NCBI GenBank assembly: GCA_002104895.1
Contig: MCFG01000002.1
Coordinates: 91,001-155,000, forward strand
Source: Anaeromyces robustus
Taxonomy: Eukaryota > Neocallimastigomycota > Neocallimastigomycetes > Neocallimastigales > Neocallimastigaceae
Length of the DNA stretch: 64,000 nt
Reading direction: 5' to 3'
Under the pieces are notes generated by a model. The model saw only the letters and a program-made list of their open reading frames with translations. It was not told the DNA's origin and made no database searches. Position 1 is the stretch's first letter, and every line of letters starts with the position of its first letter. The translations under genes and the position numbers were made by a program. Below are positions 26,634 to 49,285 of this stretch, in pieces.

Positions 26634-29600
26634 ATAATTAATATGAATATTAATTATTATATTATTATATTAATAAAATATGTATTTACCAATTCCTTCT
26701 GGTTCAGATTGATCATACTTTTCTAATGATATTTTATAATTATGAACATCCCACAAATAAACTAAATCTTGTAATTGATGTTTTAATTTATTTTCTTCTA
26801 TGGATTCGATAGTACTTTTATTTTGAAAAATACTATAACTACTAGTATGTGCTAATAAAATAATATTATCGACATGATGCATTGGAGTAGGTGCAATAAA
26901 TGTTTTATATTTTGAAGAAAATATTGTTTCAAAAGAATTATAAATTGTTTTATTATTATCAATTAATTTCATTAATTTTAAAGCATTATGTGGACTTTTT
27001 TCATAATTTTCAACTAATCTTGCTCTTTGTTCTATCCATATATAAATATAACTCCTAAAATTGATTAAATATTTATAAAAAATTACTATATTAGGAATAT
27101 CTATTCTTTTTTTCTATTATTTTCTTTTTTTTTTATTTTATTTTTTTTTATGTTATCTTTTTTTTATCTATACCTTTCATCAGGATTAAGAATAGTTAAC
27201 ACCTCATATTTTAACCACTTTATATAATCTTCAACTGGGACTTCAATAGGTATATTATCTAATATATCACATATATTATAAATCAAATCTTTCTTTGAAT
27301 CTTTTAAAAAATAAATATTAATATTAATTGACGTTAATTAAAAAAAAATTATTTGTTTTAATTGTGCTTCATTATATTTATTATTAATTAAAATATTATT
27401 GAAATATTAATGTATTTTTTAACATACCCATCAAATGTCTTCTCCAAATGACAATACCCAATGAAATTTTTCCGTAATAAAAGCATTTCTTAATATCCTC
27501 AATTATATCTGAATTTTTAAAAGATTCCCATTCCTTAGAATCAAATGATATATCATTTGTTATTCGACGACCCTTTTTTAATATAATAAAAGTTCCTAAT
27601 CTTTTTATAGATTGTTGAACTTTTATAATCAATTCATTATTCTTATGATCAATATTAGTAGTTTGAATTAATTGATTAGCATAATTTAATAATGCTAAAA
27701 TATCTTCATAATTTTTTAATTTAAGATCCAAACAAAAAGTTAAAACAAAATCAAAATCTTCTATTTGACTTAAATCTTTTATAATTTGCTTTATATCATA
27801 ATAATAATCATTATTTGAATTGACATTTTCCACAATATCAGATAGTTTAGCTTTTAATACTAATTGTTTATTTAAATTATTTTCTTCAGCAAAATCTAAC
27901 GCTTTGTCAAAAATTTTTTTATTAATCATATATTGAAATTGATTTGTTGGTATAATTTCAGACAATAAACGAATATTTAGTGTACTTTTTTTTTATATTT
28001 TAAAGAGTTATAATCAAAATAATTATTTTTTAATGATTTAATTATTTTATATTACAAAAATAAAAATTTTTAATAAATATTGAATGAATATATTAATAAT
28101 AAATAATATATTAAAATATTAAAAATATATTTGAGGAAAAAAAAATAATATACAATACTTTTCATTATCCGAATTTGCTTCAATAAAATACAAACCATTT
28201 AAATTAAATTCTTTATTAGATGATTGATCTTCTTCATTATTATCATTTTTATTTTTATTATTTTTCCATTGATTTTCATTTTTAATTAACCAAGATTTAC
28301 GATTGATTTCAATTTTATGAAGAACTTGATAACTTGGAATTTGAATGATTTCTAAATATCTTTTGAATTTTTGAGATTTTTCTTCTACTAATACGATTAT
28401 ATTTCTATCTTCATTTGATGAATGACTAGGTAAAATACAAAAATCAATAATGTCTGTATTTAAAAATTCATATAACAGTATCATCCTTAATTATTGTTAT
28501 TATTGTAGTTTATATTGTTTAAATAAATATAAAAATTAAAATTAAATTAATATATCATTAAAATATAACAAATATTAATAATAAATAATTAAAGCATATT
28601 ATAAAAAGAAAATATAAGCAAAATATATATATATACCATTCTAAACTAAATATTAATAATCTTTTATATTCGTCTAATACAAATAAATATTTTCCTTCAT
28701 CATCAACTTTAATCTTTAAAATTTCTGAATTATTTAAAATATCACTTATTCCCTCAATCATAATTGTTTTTTTATTTATTGTTGAATATGCCCATATTGA
28801 TAATGAATATTTCCCTTTTAAAAAAAAAGAATAATATTATAATTATTTAATATAAAATTGAATTATTTAAATATATATTATATATTTAAATAATAAATGT
28901 ATATTTGAATATATACCAGAACCAGCAATAATGATATTTTCTTGATCTTTTGATTTATATATACAAATATCATTGATTGATTGATGGTGTGGTGAATCTA
29001 TAGTTTGGCCTATATCAATTGTTTCAATAATTATATTTTTCTTAATCTTTTATGAAATAATTAATATGAATATAAAAATTTGTTAAAAAAATTAATAATA
29101 ATAATAATAAGCATTTAATGTATATAATAAAAACTATTTTAACTTTATAAAAATGTATATAAATATGTATATATTCACTTCAGACGCCAAAGATAAATCA
29201 TTTTTATTTATTGAATTTTCCAATTTTGTTAAATCAATATTAGAAAACTTTAACATTCTATAATCTTTAAGTATTATAAATAGTTCTTCAATATTTCCTT
29301 CTCTTTTATAAAATATAATTATTTTAATATATTAAATATGAATTAATATACTAATAAATTTATTAAAAAAATTTTTCTTTTTTTTTTATTAATTTTTTCA
29401 AATAATATTAAAAATATTAAAAAAAAAAACTAATAATAATATATTTATTACTTTTTTGTATTAAAACTTAGAGCCAAAAAACATGGTGTATTAGAAGTGC
29501 AATTTGGTTGAATTATTCGTTGAGAAAATATTATATTCTTAGTTCCAAGGTGAAAAAAAAGAATTCTACCCAAATTATCAGCAATTATAATAAAATTTTC

Positions 29601-31606: not shown

Positions 31607-34600
31607 CTATCCTATTCCACTAGGGTCGGAAATAGGATCGGCATTTGCCCTACTAGGCTGTCCTACTGTGTTATCAGCATTGACGTTCCTGGAGAGGTTG
31701 GTTTTAAATTTATTGAATAATATATGTTGTCTTTTACAGACAACAGGCATGATATCATTCAATAGAGCCGCAGATCGCAACAAGAATGGGGATTTTGAAT
31801 AAGTACCAGATTCAGTCTGACACTTAAACAAACATTCCCATTCCTTTTTGTATGGACTATTGTTAATTCTATCACTAAAACCATAATCTCTACCACCAAT
31901 TAAAAAAATATATATTCTATACCTATTAACTATTTTTTTACTACCTAATATATCTATATTACTTATACTATTATTACTACTTTTATAACCCTTAACAATA
32001 TTATTTATTCTATTATCCACACTAGGGTTATTACTAGTCCTAACTAAACTATTAAAAAGACTATCTAAAAAATAAAAAAAATTTCTATCTAAATCAGAGA
32101 AGTGATCAATACGAAGATTTTTAAATAAGAAACAATTTATAAACCAATGATCAATTCTCTGATAACTGTCACAATGGAAACAACATGAACAACAATTAGG
32201 ACAAGAATTATTAATCATTTTAGCAGCTTTTGCAACTCTAGCATCGATTTTATATCCACATCTTGCCCTAAGTATCCACCGAAAACCTTTGCTATATTCA
32301 GGAAATTCTAGATTAAGCTTTAAGTAACTTCTTGATTCTTCAAAGTTGTACAATTTATAAGTTTTAGCTTTAATTGATTTATCACTGTTCATGTCTCTGT
32401 CCCAATAGAATTCCATAATTTCTTTAGTAGAGGATGAAATATTGTTTAATTTATCATTTAATATTTTACTTTCTTTGTCCCAAGTCCATTTTCTTGTTGT
32501 AGCAACATTATTAACTATCTTTGAGATAATGCAGTTGGAGTCCTTCCACTTATTAAAACATCTAACCTGAGCTAAAGCACATTTACCAGAAAGTGGAGGA
32601 ATATTGAGTTCTTTTGAGATGCAATAAATAGAAACAAAAGAATTAGGTTTCGAGTAGCCTAAAATCCAATAAAAACCTTTGTTAATTATTGTTTGTGTAG
32701 AACTAGTATTGTTTTTGTTAGAACCAAGCAAAGGCGCGTAATAGGAAACTTGTCCAATAACTTTTGCAGAGAATAAAGTTCTTTTAAGAGGAATAGGAAT
32801 CAGATCATTTTTTAAAAAACCCTGAATTGAAAACAAAGCCTTACTAACTTTATTTTTCATTTTACTAATAACGAATTTTAAATCTAGAGTTTTGTGAAAG
32901 GGAACACCAAGGTAAGTATAACAATCTGTTTTAGGGATTGCAATTCCTGTTAAATAAAAGGTAGGGTCCTCTCTAAGAATATATTCCGAATTTTCATGTC
33001 TAACAGCTAATGTGCCACATTTATTAATTCCAAAAGTCATCTCGTTGTCCTTAGCCCATTTACCAACTAAACGAAGAAGTTTGTTCATACGAGATCTACT
33101 AGGGGCACAAAGAACAATATCATCAGCAAATAATCCTCCACAACAATATTCAGTATCTATTTTCACACCATTATGCAGGCAATCGTTGAAGATGTCGTTG
33201 ATAAACAAATTAAAAAGTATAGGAGATAAGGGACATCCTTGTCGAACTCCTTTAAGTATTCTGAAAGAATCGGAAAATTGTCCATTAATTTTAACACAAG
33301 CTTTGGAAGACAGATATAGGTTCTCCAAAAATTGAAAGCATTTTCCTTGTATACCAAGAGTATAAATTTTCGACAAGATGTTATATATGGGCACAGAATC
33401 GTAAGCTTTTTTAAGGTCCAGAAAAGCTATATAAGTATCTTCCCCTTTGAATTTACGTCTTTGACAAATAGAAAGAATAGAGATATAAAGACTAATACAT
33501 TCTTCCTTATTCCGAAAGCCAAATTGTTCTGGTCTGATGAATCCATGACTTATACCATATTCAGAAATTCTAGAAGCAATAATTTTCGAAAGAATCTTAA
33601 TACCATTATTGATAAGTGAGATACCACGATAGTTATCACAATTAGAAAGATCGCCTTTTTTTGGAATAGAAACAATGGATGCATTATTCCAAAAAATAGG
33701 AAAATCACCATTCCAAATACGATTAATTAAGAAACAGAAACAACTAAGACCAGCCGGAACATAGGAATCATTATTTACAGAATCATTTGAAGAGGAATCA
33801 GGAATTAAAGCTTTATAAAATTCAATAGGGATACCATCGGGACCGAGGCTTTAAAGTTAGGGATAGAAAGGATGGCCTTTTTGATTTCTTCAATGCTGAT
33901 ATCTTGGTTAATATCCCATACTATGTTATTTCCACTCTTTATACGATTAATAGCGGGAGAATTCTTCCAGAATTTTTTATTCATGCTATGTCCAGTAGAG
34001 TCATAACTAAGTTTCTTATAATAATTGCACCAAACATCTAATTGATCTTTAGTACTATACACTAAGTTATCTTGGTGGTCTCTGATAGGATGAGGTATAA
34101 ATAACTCCTGATTGTTATTTTTAATATTCTTCTTAATCCATGACCATGATTTTCTGCTGTCATTTTTTAAGGTAGCCTCGCAGCCTACTTTAATCCAAAA
34201 TAAATAGTTTTGTCTTCTAAATTCATTACACTTTTTATGAATAGATTGGCATAATTTATTATAAGATGCAACAAGGATAATAAATTGATTAGGTTCATAA
34301 TCCAAATGGCTCTTTTTAATTTGTCGATACTTCAAGCTTTTGATTCTTTGAAGACAGTAAATATTACGTGACATATGGAACATTGATTTCCTAATTTCAG
34401 TAGAAGATGTAATTTCAAGGTCCTCTGCAATTGAATTAGAAGTATTAATAAACTTATCAACTAGATCATCAATAGAAAGAGAAGGATTATTAAAGATCTC
34501 ATTATTTAAAATAGCAAACTTGTTATTGTCAACAATATCGTTTTTCATTTCCTTACAGCGAATTCTATTCCATTGAACAACCTTTTTTGGGTGAGTAAAG

Positions 34601-35456
34601 GAGAGATCAACAAAATTTTTCTTACAATATACTAACATTGGTTTATGATCAGAGACTGGGTGATAATCAATAAAGGAAGCATAAGATATAAGGTTCAACA
34701 TTTTATAATTAACCAAAGCATGATCAATATCTGAAGATAAATTACCTTGAACCCAAGAGATTCTTGAACTATTGAGAGGTAAAATTATCCAACCATTAAT
34801 CGGTGATATTTTTTCTTCAAGGTCCACTGTTTTCATGTTAAAATCCCCAACAAGAATAGAAGCATGATCACGATGAATATTAAGCCATTCAATAACTTCT
34901 GCTAAAGCACACTTCACTTGTGTAGAATGAGAGCTGACAGGGATATATACATTTCCAACAGAGCATTTAGAGTCGTATATATTATAATTAGTTAAGGAAA
35001 TAATGTAATTAAATGAATTCTCTTCAAGTATTGCTTGACAAGATTTATGATAACCTAAAAATAAGCCTCTCATGCCTGGAATACTATCAACGGCTCTTCT
35101 AACAAAATATCGGTAATTGGGAATAGTGACTTTACATGGTTGACTACTATTGGCACCAGAACCGTTCTTTGTTTCTTGAAAACAGAGAAAAAGAGGTTTG
35201 AATAATGTGATAAAGTATTCGATACTATCTTTCTTTTCGTGGTTCCATCCATTGGTATTCCAACTGAGACAAAAAGTAAACTTATCTTTGATAGAATTAA
35301 GAGTGTTGAGATTAGAGTGTATACTAACTAATGAGTTGCGTTGGAAAGAATCTGAAGTATTAGATTGTGAGGATGTTGTAGTAGAATTACTTTGGTTATT
35401 AATTGAATCATTTAAGTTTGTTGTAGAATTTCTTTGGTTATTGATTGAATCATTTA
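31607..35456 (-). pseudogene. LINE ORF: AP endonuclease + reverse transcriptase, one frameshift
   Basis: The N-terminal part is rich in Ser/Thr/Asn with an NDSINNQ repeat. The AP endonuclease follows, with LSWNTNGW, FLCFQETKNG, ILVGDFNM and VSDHKPML motifs. One frame runs to a break at about 33840-33847, just before the RT domain. The next frame carries the RT, with GVRQGCPLSPILFNLFIND and the catalytic FADD in GGLFADDIVLC. A Cys/His-rich domain comes last (CPNCCSCCFHC...H...C), then the stop at 31607. Apart from this single-base frame change the region is open from the element's 5' edge to the stop. The break could be a disabling mutation or a sequencing error in this copy. Confidence 0.9.
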
Positions 35457-35469
35457 CCAATATTATAAA
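35457..35469. repeat. Target-site duplication of the LINE, right copy
   Basis: CCAATATTATAAA, identical to 31341-31353, marking the 5' end of the element. Confidence 0.9.
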
Positions 35470-42674: not shown

Positions 42675-43535
42675 ATGGCTGCCATTCAAAGTGAAATCGT
42701 TAACATTAACAAGTTCAACTTCGCTAAGCTTCCATTACTTCCAAACATTGCTGTTATTGGTAAGCGTGCTCTTGACAAGGCTTCCCTTGTTCACGATTTA
42801 ATGCACAAGCTTCACGACACTCACCACTACTATTCATCTATTGTCTTTGATCCATTTGAAGCTGCTGATCCATTCTTTACTAGTTTCGTTCCAGCTTCTA
42901 ACATTTTCAATGAATTAGATGCTAATGTTCTTGAAGAAGTTATCAAGACTCAAAAGGCTAAGGCTGATATCTTAAAGCATGCTATTGGTATCAACCTTAT
43001 TAACCGTGAAACTCCAGTTAACTTCAACACTGTTGTTGTTATTTCTGGTTCTTTATTACACAAGAATATTGAAAATGTTCGTGTTAACACTTTACTTCGT
43101 GAACTTTTATCTCAAGGTTCTGAATTCGGTATTAGTGTTATTATTACTGCTCGTCACCTTAGCCACATTAACCCAGCCTTCTACGAATTCTTCGATTGGG
43201 TCTTTGCTTTCGAATCTAGCAGTGATTTAGAAAAGCAAAAATTATTCGAATTCTTCGGTGGTAACCTTGATGCTGCTCTCTTCCGTGAAGTTTTAGAAGA
43301 ATCTACTTCTGTTTCCAGAAAGTGTCTCGGTATTCGTTGTACCGGTTCTTGCTTAGCTACTGGTAACGCTCAAACTCAACTTTACTGGTACTCTCCAGAA
43401 GTTAACATTCCAAAATTCGTTTTCGGTAAGAAATACATTTTACCAACTAAGAATGTTCCAAGAAAGGCTGCTCTTATCAAGAGTGAAAAGAGTTCCGCTC
43501 CAGCTTCCCCATTAGTTGTTAAGTTATTAGCTTAA
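42675..43535 (+). CDS. A32-type (FtsK-HerA) packaging-ATPase-like protein with lost catalytic motifs
   Basis: Intronless, 286 residues from the ATG in AAAAATGGCTGCC. An upstream in-frame ATG would add only a T-rich hydrophobic tail. Its layout resembles A32-family DNA-packaging ATPases of large DNA viruses: a beta strand plus P-loop position (IAVIGKRALDKASLV, 25-39), a second strand (SSIVFDPFEAADPF), a helix around EEVIKTQKAKADIL, the Walker B position (NTVVVISGSLL, 118-128), a sensor-like strand (GISVIITARHLSHINPAF), then DWVFAFESSSDLEKQKLFEFFGG and a C-terminal YWYSPE. The P-loop keeps its first Gly and a Lys but has lost the second Gly and the Lys-Ser/Thr pair. Walker B acidic residues are Ser-Gly. 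ATP hydrolysis is therefore unlikely. Codons favour AAC, TTC, AAG, GGT and CGT, a high-expression style. Confidence 0.72.
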   Translation: MAAIQSEIVNINKFNFAKLPLLPNIAVIGKRALDKASLVHDLMHKLHDTHHYYSSIVFDPFEAADPFFTSFVPASNIFNELDANVLEEVIKTQKAKADILKHAIGINLINRETPVNFNTVVVISGSLLHKNIENVRVNTLLRELLSQGSEFGISVIITARHLSHINPAFYEFFDWVFAFESSSDLEKQKLFEFFGGNLDAALFREVLEESTSVSRKCLGIRCTGSCLATGNAQTQLYWYSPEVNIPKFVFGKKYILPTKNVPRKAALIKSEKSSAPASPLVVKLLA

Positions 43536-44887: not shown

Positions 44888-45785
44888 CAATAAAATTGAT
44901 GCTATAGAGTTTCTAAAGCTGTTAAAATGATTAATAATTATTGTCCTAATTGTTGTTCGTGTTGTTTCCATAGTGATAGTTATCAAAGAATTGATTATTG
45001 ATTTATTAATTATTTTCTATTAAAAATTTTTCGTATTAACCATTTCTCCGATTTAGATAGAAACTTTTTTTATTTCTTAGATAATCTTTTTAATAGTTTA
45101 TATGTGACCAGTGATAACTCTAGTGTAGATAATAGAATTAATAATATATTGTTAAGGGTTATAAAAGTAGTTCCTAATAATGGAAACAATAGTATATGTA
45201 AGTAATATTGATATTTTAGGAAATAGAAAAATTGTTAACAGGTATCGAATTTATATTTTTTTAATTGGTGGAAGAGATTATGGTTTTAGTGATAGAATTA
45301 ACAATTGTCCATACAAAAAGGAATGGGAATGTTTGTTTAAGTGTCAGACTGAATCTGGTACATATTCAAAATCTCCATTTTTGTTGCGATCTAGGGCTCT
45401 ATTGAATGATATCATATCCGTTGTCTGCAAAAGACAACATGTATTGTTCGATAAATTCAAATCCAATCTCTTCAGGAACGATAATGCTGATAACACAGTA
45501 GGACAGCCTAGTTGGGAAAATCCAGATCCTATTACTGACCTAAATGAAATAGGATAGATCAATTTCACTTTAATACTATAGGAGGAATTAAGAGCTAGTA
45601 TGAATTTATTGTTTTTATGTATTACTATACTACTTTATACCTTCCAGTATTATTCATTATTATCTATAATGTTTATCTGGTTTTTCTTATTAATATCATT
45701 TTTTTATTTTATGCTTTTTTTTTATGATTTATATATATTAATATTTAAACTCAATAAAGATGATATACAATTGTGTGCTTTTAAA
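44888..45785 (+). pseudogene. 5'-truncated, decayed LINE copy
   Basis: Colinear with the 3' end of the LINE at 31.4-32.2 kb, on the opposite strand. It begins at the Cys/His domain (NNYCPNCCSCCFH...), where a Trp codon has become TGA near 44999, and drifts in frame before the open stretch 45180-45557. That stretch matches the LINE C-terminus (GGRDYGFSDRINN, QTESGTYSKSPFLLR, DNADNTVGQPS). Similarity continues through the 3' region to about 45785 and stops without a long poly-A. Dead copy by stops and truncation. Confidence 0.88.
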
Positions 45786-47454: not shown

Positions 47455-49285
47455 GTAATAATAATAATTGAATTTTAATAATGAATAATATAATGATTAT
47501 TATAAATTTTATTATTATTATCATTATTATTCTTATAATAATTTAATATATAATTGAATTATGTAAAACCTATTGAAACATTATTTTAATATTCAATTTA
47601 TCAAATTTATTATATATTATTTATTTTATTTTATAGAAAATAAATATTTTACAAGACAACTAGAAGAAATAAAAATTGAAGAACTTTTACTCGCAAATGA
47701 AACACAAATTAGTATAGTAAGTGGCCCTTCTTCTTGTGGAAAAACAAAACTTATTCAAAATGCTTTGCAAACTTTAGATATTGATTATGTTATTTTAGAA
47801 AGTAATGATTTTAAGAATATAAAAACTCTTTATAATACTTTAAAATATCAAATATCACCATCAATGGGTAAAAAAACTTCAAGAAATGATATTATTAATA
47901 ATGAAGCAATTTTGGATTTATTAAATTCTATTCCAGAGGAAATCCCAGTTATTATTGATGATGCCTATTCACTTTTTAATTATTCTAATGGTCTTGATAA
48001 TGATGAAGATGATAATGATGAATATTCTCTAAAAATTAATCCAATTATATTTGAATGGATTTATGGATGTCTTGAAAATGATAAAAAATTAAATATAATT
48101 CTTGTATCATCTAATCCTTTAGTTGAATGTTGGATTGATATAAGTAAATATTAATTCATATGAATTAAATTATAAAAATTTTTACTTAATATAATACGTT
48201 TTATTATTTATTATTATAAAAATTTTTAATAATTCTAATAATTATTTTTTTTTTCTTCATTAGATATACCCAATGAAATTGTTTGTTATTGTCCAATAAG
48301 AGATTTAACATATGATGAAGCTCAAGATTTCTTTTATTCTTATCTTTATGATGAAGGTAAAATTATTTATTATATATATTATTTAAATTATCAGTTTTAT
48401 TAAATAAATTTTTAAAAAAAATGTATAATTTATTAATATATATAATAAATAATTATGTATTGTATTTTTTTTTATTCATTTCATTATTATAGGTATTGAA
48501 TCTATTGATTTAACCTTTGAAGATATTTATCCAATTACTGGTACAAGATTATCAATTATTAAAGACTTTATACAGGAATATATCAAAAGACCTAATGAAG
48601 ATTTTAATGGTATATATTTTATTAGTAATATTTTAAATATTAAGATTTTATTAATATATATAATAAAATAAAAAATTATTTAAACAAAAAGTATATTATT
48701 TATAATCAATTAATATTATTCAATATTATTAATATTTTTAATTTAATTTTTTTTTTTTATTTAATTCAAATACTTAAAGATTTAGATTTTAGTACTTTAA
48801 ATGAAATTTATAATAAATTAAATAATCTTTTAGAAGACTCTGAACAACCACAATTATTAAAACGTATAATGGCCATAATGGTTGGTGAATCTGAACGTGG
48901 TTATGTAGAAGAAAAAGAATTAGAATATATATTTAATAATAACCAAGGATTTAATGAAGAAGATGAAGAAGATGAAGAAGAATATTTGTTAAAGAAAAAT
49001 AATGGAAAAAGAAGAATAAAAAAATCTTCTAAACAATCCATTCCATCATCTAAAGATTTTTGGGAAATTATTGCTACTTTAATTGAAAATAATATATTAA
49101 ATCGTAATATTATGGAATTTACTTCACCTGAACCTCTTCCATCTTCAACTTCATCTCGTAAATATACCCAAAATAATAATAAACCAGTGATAATTAAACG
49201 TCCTGTTTTATTCCCTGAAAATCAATGCGTTTTATATGCTATGGATTTAATTTTAAAAGATAATAATATTCAAATAAGTCATTAA
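46959..49285 (+). CDS. P-loop ATPase (ATPase_2/AAA+-like) with basic N-terminal extension
   Basis: Five exons: 46959-47409, 47637-48143, 48264-48356, 48493-48609, 48780-49285, all phase 1, totalling 1,674 nt (557 residues). The first 150 residues are Lys/Asn-rich and probably disordered; the N-terminus (SLTQRFFSINAQTK) could be a targeting helix. The ATPase domain follows with Walker A GPSSCGKT at 180-187 and Walker B VIIDD at 255-259. Then come a sensor-like strand (NIILVSSNPL), a CPIRDLTYDEAQDFF segment and a helical C-terminal part with an acidic loop (NEEDEEDEEE). I recognise the overall shape of archaeal-type/STAND-like ATPases but not the specific family. Intron 1 begins with an AAT run that would encode poly-Asn and a stop if retained. 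Confidence 0.75.
47411..47469. repeat. (AAT)n run at the start of intron 1 of the ATPase gene
   Basis: The run directly follows the last exon 1 base and contains the GT donor itself. If unspliced it adds about 19 mostly Asn codons and then TGA at 47469-47471. Confidence 0.8.

Follow-up and report, generated by a model that had tools for sequence, protein, structure and literature searches.

The open reading frame at 42675-43535 of the window, by which we mean the whole analysed stretch of 64,000 nucleotides, raises the question of how a gene resembling viral DNA-packaging ATPases came to stand among ordinary fungal genes, and what its product could do with the ATP-handling residues replaced. 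The plus-strand frame starts with ATG, runs through 286 codons without a stop and is intronless; a recheck of coordinates and frame left this description, first given in a sequence-only reading of the locus, unchanged. The protein (P0001) is encoded once in the 70.2-Mb, 769-contig genome. Its relatives are nine further protein clusters, 80-92% identical to it and each 285 or 286 aa long, all of which start with Met-Ala-Ala like the window protein. The family aligns without gaps, except for one residue near the C-terminus in three of the nine relatives. The longest contig measures at most 1301 bases for six of the nine clusters, which would fit a transcript origin, and the nine probably belong to other gut fungi. 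Broken homologues had been named as evidence that would speak against a preserved gene; instead, all ten clusters are full length and intact, as expected of a domesticated gene conserved across lineages.

The window belongs to contig C112 and has a composition of 17% GC. Among the 150 of 683 candidates that were scored, the genome gave 150 matches to the dockerin-type family PF02013, which is absent from 14 control prokaryotes; taken with the low GC content, these matches suggest that the host is an anaerobic gut fungus, presumably of the phylum Neocallimastigomycota. The gene itself sits in an ordinary chromosomal setting, the recognizable neighbours being a LINE-type element, a KNTC1-like exon, an AAA-domain exon and a dual-specificity phosphatase. 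No viral neighbour (capsid, integrase or fibre) was recognized around it, in a Pfam scan of ten neighbouring ORFs that left five without a match, and the segment 43536-45179 holds no ORF of at least 80 aa. The LINE-type retroelement (31607-35460, minus strand) comprises an endonuclease ORF (PF03372) and an ORF that by eye is reverse-transcriptase-like, and a 125-codon piece, by eye from the 3' end of this same element, lies at 45180-45557 on the plus strand, roughly 1.6 kb past the end of the ORF. The KNTC1-like kinetochore protein exon (27396-27965, minus strand) matches PF24520 with an E value of 7.4e-27. The AAA/ATPase_2-type exon (47573-48154, plus strand), which has an intact P-loop and DD, scores just below the cut-off and perhaps belongs to an origin-recognition subunit. 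The features of the gene are listed in the table.

Table. Features of the 286-codon gene, in window coordinates.
Feature	Position	Strand	Basis
Coding sequence, putative pseudo-ATPase of the A32-type packaging lineage, 286 aa	42675..43535	+	ORF, family alignment, profile matches
Former Walker A, residues 29-37, GKRALDKAS	42759..42785	+	G29 and K35 kept; Asp34 and Ala36 replace second Gly and Ser/Thr (10/10 fungal rows)
Family-specific insert, residues 101-117, ahead of the Walker B strand	42975..43025	+	14/17 positions invariant; exact ends alignment-dependent
Former Walker B strand, residues 120-125, VVVISG	43032..43049	+	Ser124-Gly125 in 10/10 fungal rows; Asp-Asp in 53/53 viral rows
Site of viral Asn-x-Arg-His, here Gln-Gly-Ser-Glu, residues 147-150	43113..43124	+	Gln147 and Glu150 in 10/10; position 149 Ser in 9/10, Thr in 1/10
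Site of viral sensor-type Gln (Q165), here Arg160	43152..43154	+	Gln in 52/53 viral rows, Arg in 10/10 fungal rows
Site of conserved viral Arg (R175 of P0011), here Tyr170	43182..43184	+	Arg in 52/53 viral rows, Tyr in 10/10 fungal rows
Cys-rich, strongly conserved stretch, residues 214-240, three invariant Cys	43314..43394	+	22/27 positions invariant, pairwise identity 0.957
C-terminal part, residues 241-286, past the region matched to viral ATPases	43395..43532	+	hhalign match stops at residue 214; 29/46 invariant

Likeness to the A32 ATPases, as the sequence-only reading had proposed, is upheld by profile comparison and genome searches, though no Pfam family was matched. The Pfam search with the single protein gave Fasciclin as its best result (E 0.025, below the cut-off), and that with the family alignment gave no match above the cut-off. 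The cut-off of PF04665 was reached by neither the protein nor the family, a search of the whole genome with PF04665 gave no match, and no Pfam P-loop family was matched by either protein or family, even weakly. The PHROGs search with the single protein returned only sub-threshold matches with unrelated names, solved structures searched with the protein and with the family yielded no sequence match (all E >0.7), and no relative was found in IMG/VR or the prokaryote genomes. Fasciclin, weak in six of the ten members, and TraM (E 0.2) were discarded as noise below the cut-off.

When a profile of the ten sequences was run against a collection of 5.8 billion proteins (8000 candidates scored), the family itself was followed by two Pox_A32 (PF04665) proteins with E values of 0.081 and 7.8. 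The viral ATPase family gathered from these two comprised 205 proteins at E <= 0.001, 120 of them listed; the viral profile consists of 49 sequences, namely 48 of the 120 listed, hand-picked to be full length and widely spread, plus a single one from contig L004. Comparison of the fungal family with this profile by hhalign gave a probability of 96.6 and a score of 70.2 over 156 columns at 28% identity, whereas none of 200 column shuffles exceeded 24.3 and reversing the alignment gave 16.8. Residues 1-106 alone scored 52.0 (150 shuffles at most 23.5). For residues 107-286 the score was 30.9 (shuffles at most 26.9) with a probability of only 31.0, and for residues 118-286 it was 31.1 (shuffles at most 23.5) with a probability of only 33.5. 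Both parts match the viral profile in collinear order, and the matched region includes segments outside the P-loop, such as IFNELDANVLEEVIK. In the reverse direction, the viral queries P0011 and P0025 found the 42675-43535 ORF as their sole match at E <= 10 in the 70-Mb genome (E 0.0056 and 0.0044, respectively), whereas the more distant query P0115 placed it second (E 0.109), after an ABC-type ORF (E 0.070). At the level of sequence, these comparisons show that the fungal protein shares common descent with the A32-type packaging ATPases, the link being weaker with P0115, and the A32 core of the fold is probably retained.

We call the matched ATPases Polinton-like-virus proteins because of the gene content of two contigs, as read by eye: L015, which encodes a distant member, carries capsid, lipase-like and tyrosine-recombinase ORFs, and L002 carries a Peptidase_S74 fibre gene. 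The closest relatives found would accordingly be ATPases of small (Polinton-like) viruses and not of giant viruses, in a comparison made without a giant-virus set. P0011 and P0012 reach PF04665 at 31.5 and 33.3 bits, respectively. The fibre-like protein of L002 (2926-6711) has 1261 aa and bears its Peptidase_S74 chaperone domain near the C-terminus. A reading of the P0011 viruses as gut viruses was dropped, as a close relative from an ocean survey, the marine TARA protein P0089, shares 96% identity with P0011 across 159 residues.

The state of the catalytic motifs was read from a joint MAFFT alignment of 53 viral and ten fungal sequences. The viral rows keep the P-loop almost without exception (first Gly 53/53, second Gly 50/53, Lys 53/53, Ser/Thr 53/53). 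The fungal protein departs from the Walker A pattern GxxxxGK[S/T], reading GKRALDKA, and residue 32 varies within the family. The second Gly and the Ser/Thr are replaced, as had been noted from the letters; the Lys had been counted among the losses as well, but K35 is present in all ten rows. The replacement of the Walker B acidic pair by Ser-Gly, noted in the same reading, recurs in every fungal row of the MAFFT alignment. The hhalign register puts Walker B 17 residues earlier, at N107-L108 (Asn-Leu), and there are no acidic residues there either. The viral Asn-x-Arg-His site (Asn 52/53, Arg 53/53, His 53/53) contains R153. Of the residues that could serve as arginine finger and polar sensor, R153 corresponds to Ser/Thr in the fungal family, R175 to Tyr and Q165 to Arg; either Arg could be the finger. 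A sensor Gln has a role in A32 ATPases described in parts of PMC11703096, and the Gln at the viral Q165 position is probably that residue. Judged from the aligned rows, loss of the ATP-handling residues is fixed across the fungal family. Since the defining A32 motifs are absent, we do not count the gene among the functional A32 ATPases, and with both acids, the arginines and the sensor gone, ATP-driven DNA translocation is very unlikely. Beyond the former active site, the invariant Cys of the family are C217, C222 and C226; the stretch that holds them is unaligned with any viral segment and is a possible metal site.

Pairwise identity within the fungal family is 80-97%, and 68.5% of the columns are invariant. 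The tree joins the fungal sequences into one clade with a stem of 4.67 changes per column and a shallow crown. A long stem followed by a shallow crown indicates large change before constraint, as expected under domestication. In the free tree, the fungal clade joins 16 viral rows including P0011, opposite the 37 others (support 96/92). The length of the stem makes its placement among the viruses unsure. The AU test does not reject an alternative placement within the viral radiation (p 0.408), and we claim no exact viral source.

Codon use sets the ORF apart from its surroundings. Preferred codons for Lys, Phe, Asn, Tyr and His make up 62 of 76 (0.82), compared to 0.96 and 0.95 in two EF1a genes, 0.91 in an EF2-like gene, 0.90 in enolase (partial) and 0.86 in a BiP-like HSP70. 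The fraction is 0.19-0.55 in four other HSP70 ORFs, 0.40 in another translation-factor-type GTPase, 0.02-0.13 in ten hand-picked non-LINE ORFs of the window and 0.25-0.29 in two LINE ORFs; labels finer than the Pfam family, such as EF1a, EF2-like or BiP-like, are what we take these genes to be. The GC content is 0.375, versus 0.184-0.254 in the ten picked window ORFs. High-expression codon use, as originally suggested, is thus borne out by values near those of the elongation factors and enolase. The accompanying description of the codons as C-ending holds for Phe, Asn, Tyr and His, but is imprecise overall, as third positions are 49% T and 23% C; C is favoured over T in those four pairs, not in Asp (2/10), and G over A for Lys. 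The bias indicates long-term selection for strong translation, and on codon grounds the protein is probably abundant. Two HSP70 gene pairs, L007/L008 on contig C35 and L009/L010 on contig C765, are divergently oriented; their examined ORFs use AT-rich codons, which sets them apart from the BiP-like HSP70 on C6.

We favour, with slightly better than even confidence, a domesticated A32-type ATPase of a Polinton-like or closely related virus that has become a conserved, single-copy, abundant pseudo-ATPase, which would serve as a scaffold or in binding, its old pocket put to a new use. An old viral-type gene, kept by selection for an abundant non-catalytic protein, was also what the sequence-only reading had proposed; descent, motif loss, conservation and codon bias agree with it, and the closest relatives found, in a comparison made without a giant-virus set, would be small-virus and not giant-virus proteins. 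The structural, DNA-binding or antiviral functions suggested there are conjectural. We propose that the gene of a viral packaging ATPase was captured before the sampled relatives split, that its product became a pseudo-ATPase, and that it was then tuned for strong translation as a single-copy host gene. The A32 core and a tendency to self-assemble would have been retained, and ATP hydrolysis and DNA movement lost. The product may be an abundant oligomeric scaffold or binding protein, in which the former ATP pocket, with its Gly and Lys left, is reused for another ligand or partner and would act together with the conserved inserts (residues 101-117 and 214-240) and the new C-terminal tail. In vaccinia A32, according to parts of PMC11703096, assembly is independent of ATP or DNA binding and its motif is a coiled coil, whereas DNA binding requires an intact Walker A. 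By analogy, this split favours a scaffold over a DNA-binding role, and the fungal descendant would be expected to assemble but not to grip or move DNA. Somewhat short of even, in our estimate, is the broader proposal that gut fungi as a group made a Polinton-like-virus motor into a single-copy protein of top abundance, a nucleotide-independent ring or scaffold whose pocket binds something else.

The same viral descent and the catalytic losses in all ten rows would also suit an antiviral role, in which a dead subunit is built into the packaging ring of an invading DNA virus and disables the ring; a high-output codon bias would be apt for such a stoichiometric inhibitor. We regard this dominant-negative role as unlikely. 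Restriction factors typically evolve fast, and the slow evolution of the fungal family (80-97% pairwise identity) speaks against a partner in an arms race. Moreover, the nearest viral ATPases found are only ~28% identical and belong to a family with the marine member P0089. A capsid protein and a fibre of Polinton-like viruses, used as queries in searches without a positive control, had no match in the genome.

No more probable is that the protein descends from a generic P-loop NTPase, such as an AAA or ABC protein of the cell, and only happens to look like A32. Local similarity is common among P-loop families, and the ORF that precedes the window ORF for P0115, presumably an ABC transporter with a real P-loop, does reach 15.2 bits with the viral profile. 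The window ORF, however, scores 25.5 bits despite its broken P-loop, and none of 12,000 shuffled ORFs exceeds 10.2 bits, against a background of 300 ORFs from the window and the fetched loci. That a protein with a broken P-loop outscores a genuine P-loop ATPase favours descent from the A32 lineage over generic resemblance. The collinear match through IFNELDANVLEEVIK and the second half, outside the P-loop, and the failure of every Pfam P-loop family to match even weakly point the same way.

An NTPase that is still active through unconventional residues, with K35 kept and other acids replacing Walker B, is improbable. The first P-loop Gly and the Lys are invariant in all ten sequences, and blocks at the former catalytic site exceed random blocks in conservation (0.954 versus 0.884; fraction as high 0.028), the former having been chosen with the per-region table already known. 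Ten of the 11 motif columns are invariant, which is weak against the background of 68.5%. Such conservation is suggestive of a pocket that still does something, as the favoured reading supposes too, but the second Gly, the Ser/Thr, the Walker B acids, the Arg-His pair, the sensor-type Gln and the conserved Arg have all been replaced. Highly improbable is a functionless viral fossil in decay, which would suit a gene lying between LINE pieces and ordinary genes with no viral neighbours recognized, but is already contradicted by conservation and codon use: the nine other clusters are full length and intact, 268 of the 308 differences from P0001 score zero or above in BLOSUM62, and the codon bias is like that of elongation factors.

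If the broader proposal is true, Polinton-like viruses once infected ancestors of this fungal phylum. A host gene fixed in gut fungi and descended from a double-stranded DNA virus would preserve a molecular record of infections of that kind. The route of domestication would be unusual, as the captured protein was a DNA-translocating motor, not a capsid or envelope protein, whose catalytic site was removed while much else was kept. Gut fungi are important degraders of plant fibre, and a conserved protein that is abundant there, judged by codon use, is directly testable.

As of 2023, fungi had no known double-stranded DNA virus, according to PMC10640383, and a large survey of DNA-virus integrations excluded fungi, according to parts of PMC10120064. 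RNA viruses are reported for the gut-fungal phylum in parts of PMC7482067; our literature search found nothing on DNA viruses of the phylum. Among the titles and abstract beginnings listed, in a search that most subscription journals lay outside, none described this gene or any A32-type gene in gut fungi. Like the present locus, Rhizophagus irregularis, Gonapodya and Allomyces exemplify viral genes in early-diverging fungi (parts of PMC10640383 and PMC5294986), in main texts where the term Neocallimast- is absent. According to the same parts, the viral genes there lie in a viral region of 1.5 Mb or in genomic islands that include polymerase or primase-helicase genes, whereas here a solitary, conserved, codon-optimized gene is found.

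Compared to vaccinia A32 and the NCLDV packaging ATPases (PF04665), the fungal protein belongs to the same superfamily, linked through P0011 and P0012, but the Walker A, Walker B, arginine and sensor residues characteristic of those enzymes (parts of PMC11703096) are replaced. With the Polinton-like-virus A32-type ATPases (the P0011 family; L002, L015) it shares a collinear core of ~190 residues, the P-loop Gly and Lys, and the segment IF-x-EL-x-A-x-x-L-x-E-x-I. It differs from them in the loss of the other catalytic residues, a changed N-terminal leader, extra inserts and a C-terminal tail, and its gene is a single chromosomal host gene without recognized capsid or integrase neighbours. Fv1 and EBLN are reportedly viral genes retained by their hosts; compared to these, what is retained here would be the gene of a packaging motor with a changed catalytic site. 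Early-diverging fungi were already known to carry viral genes; what is new here is a probable domesticated viral gene that encodes a catalytically dead packaging motor.
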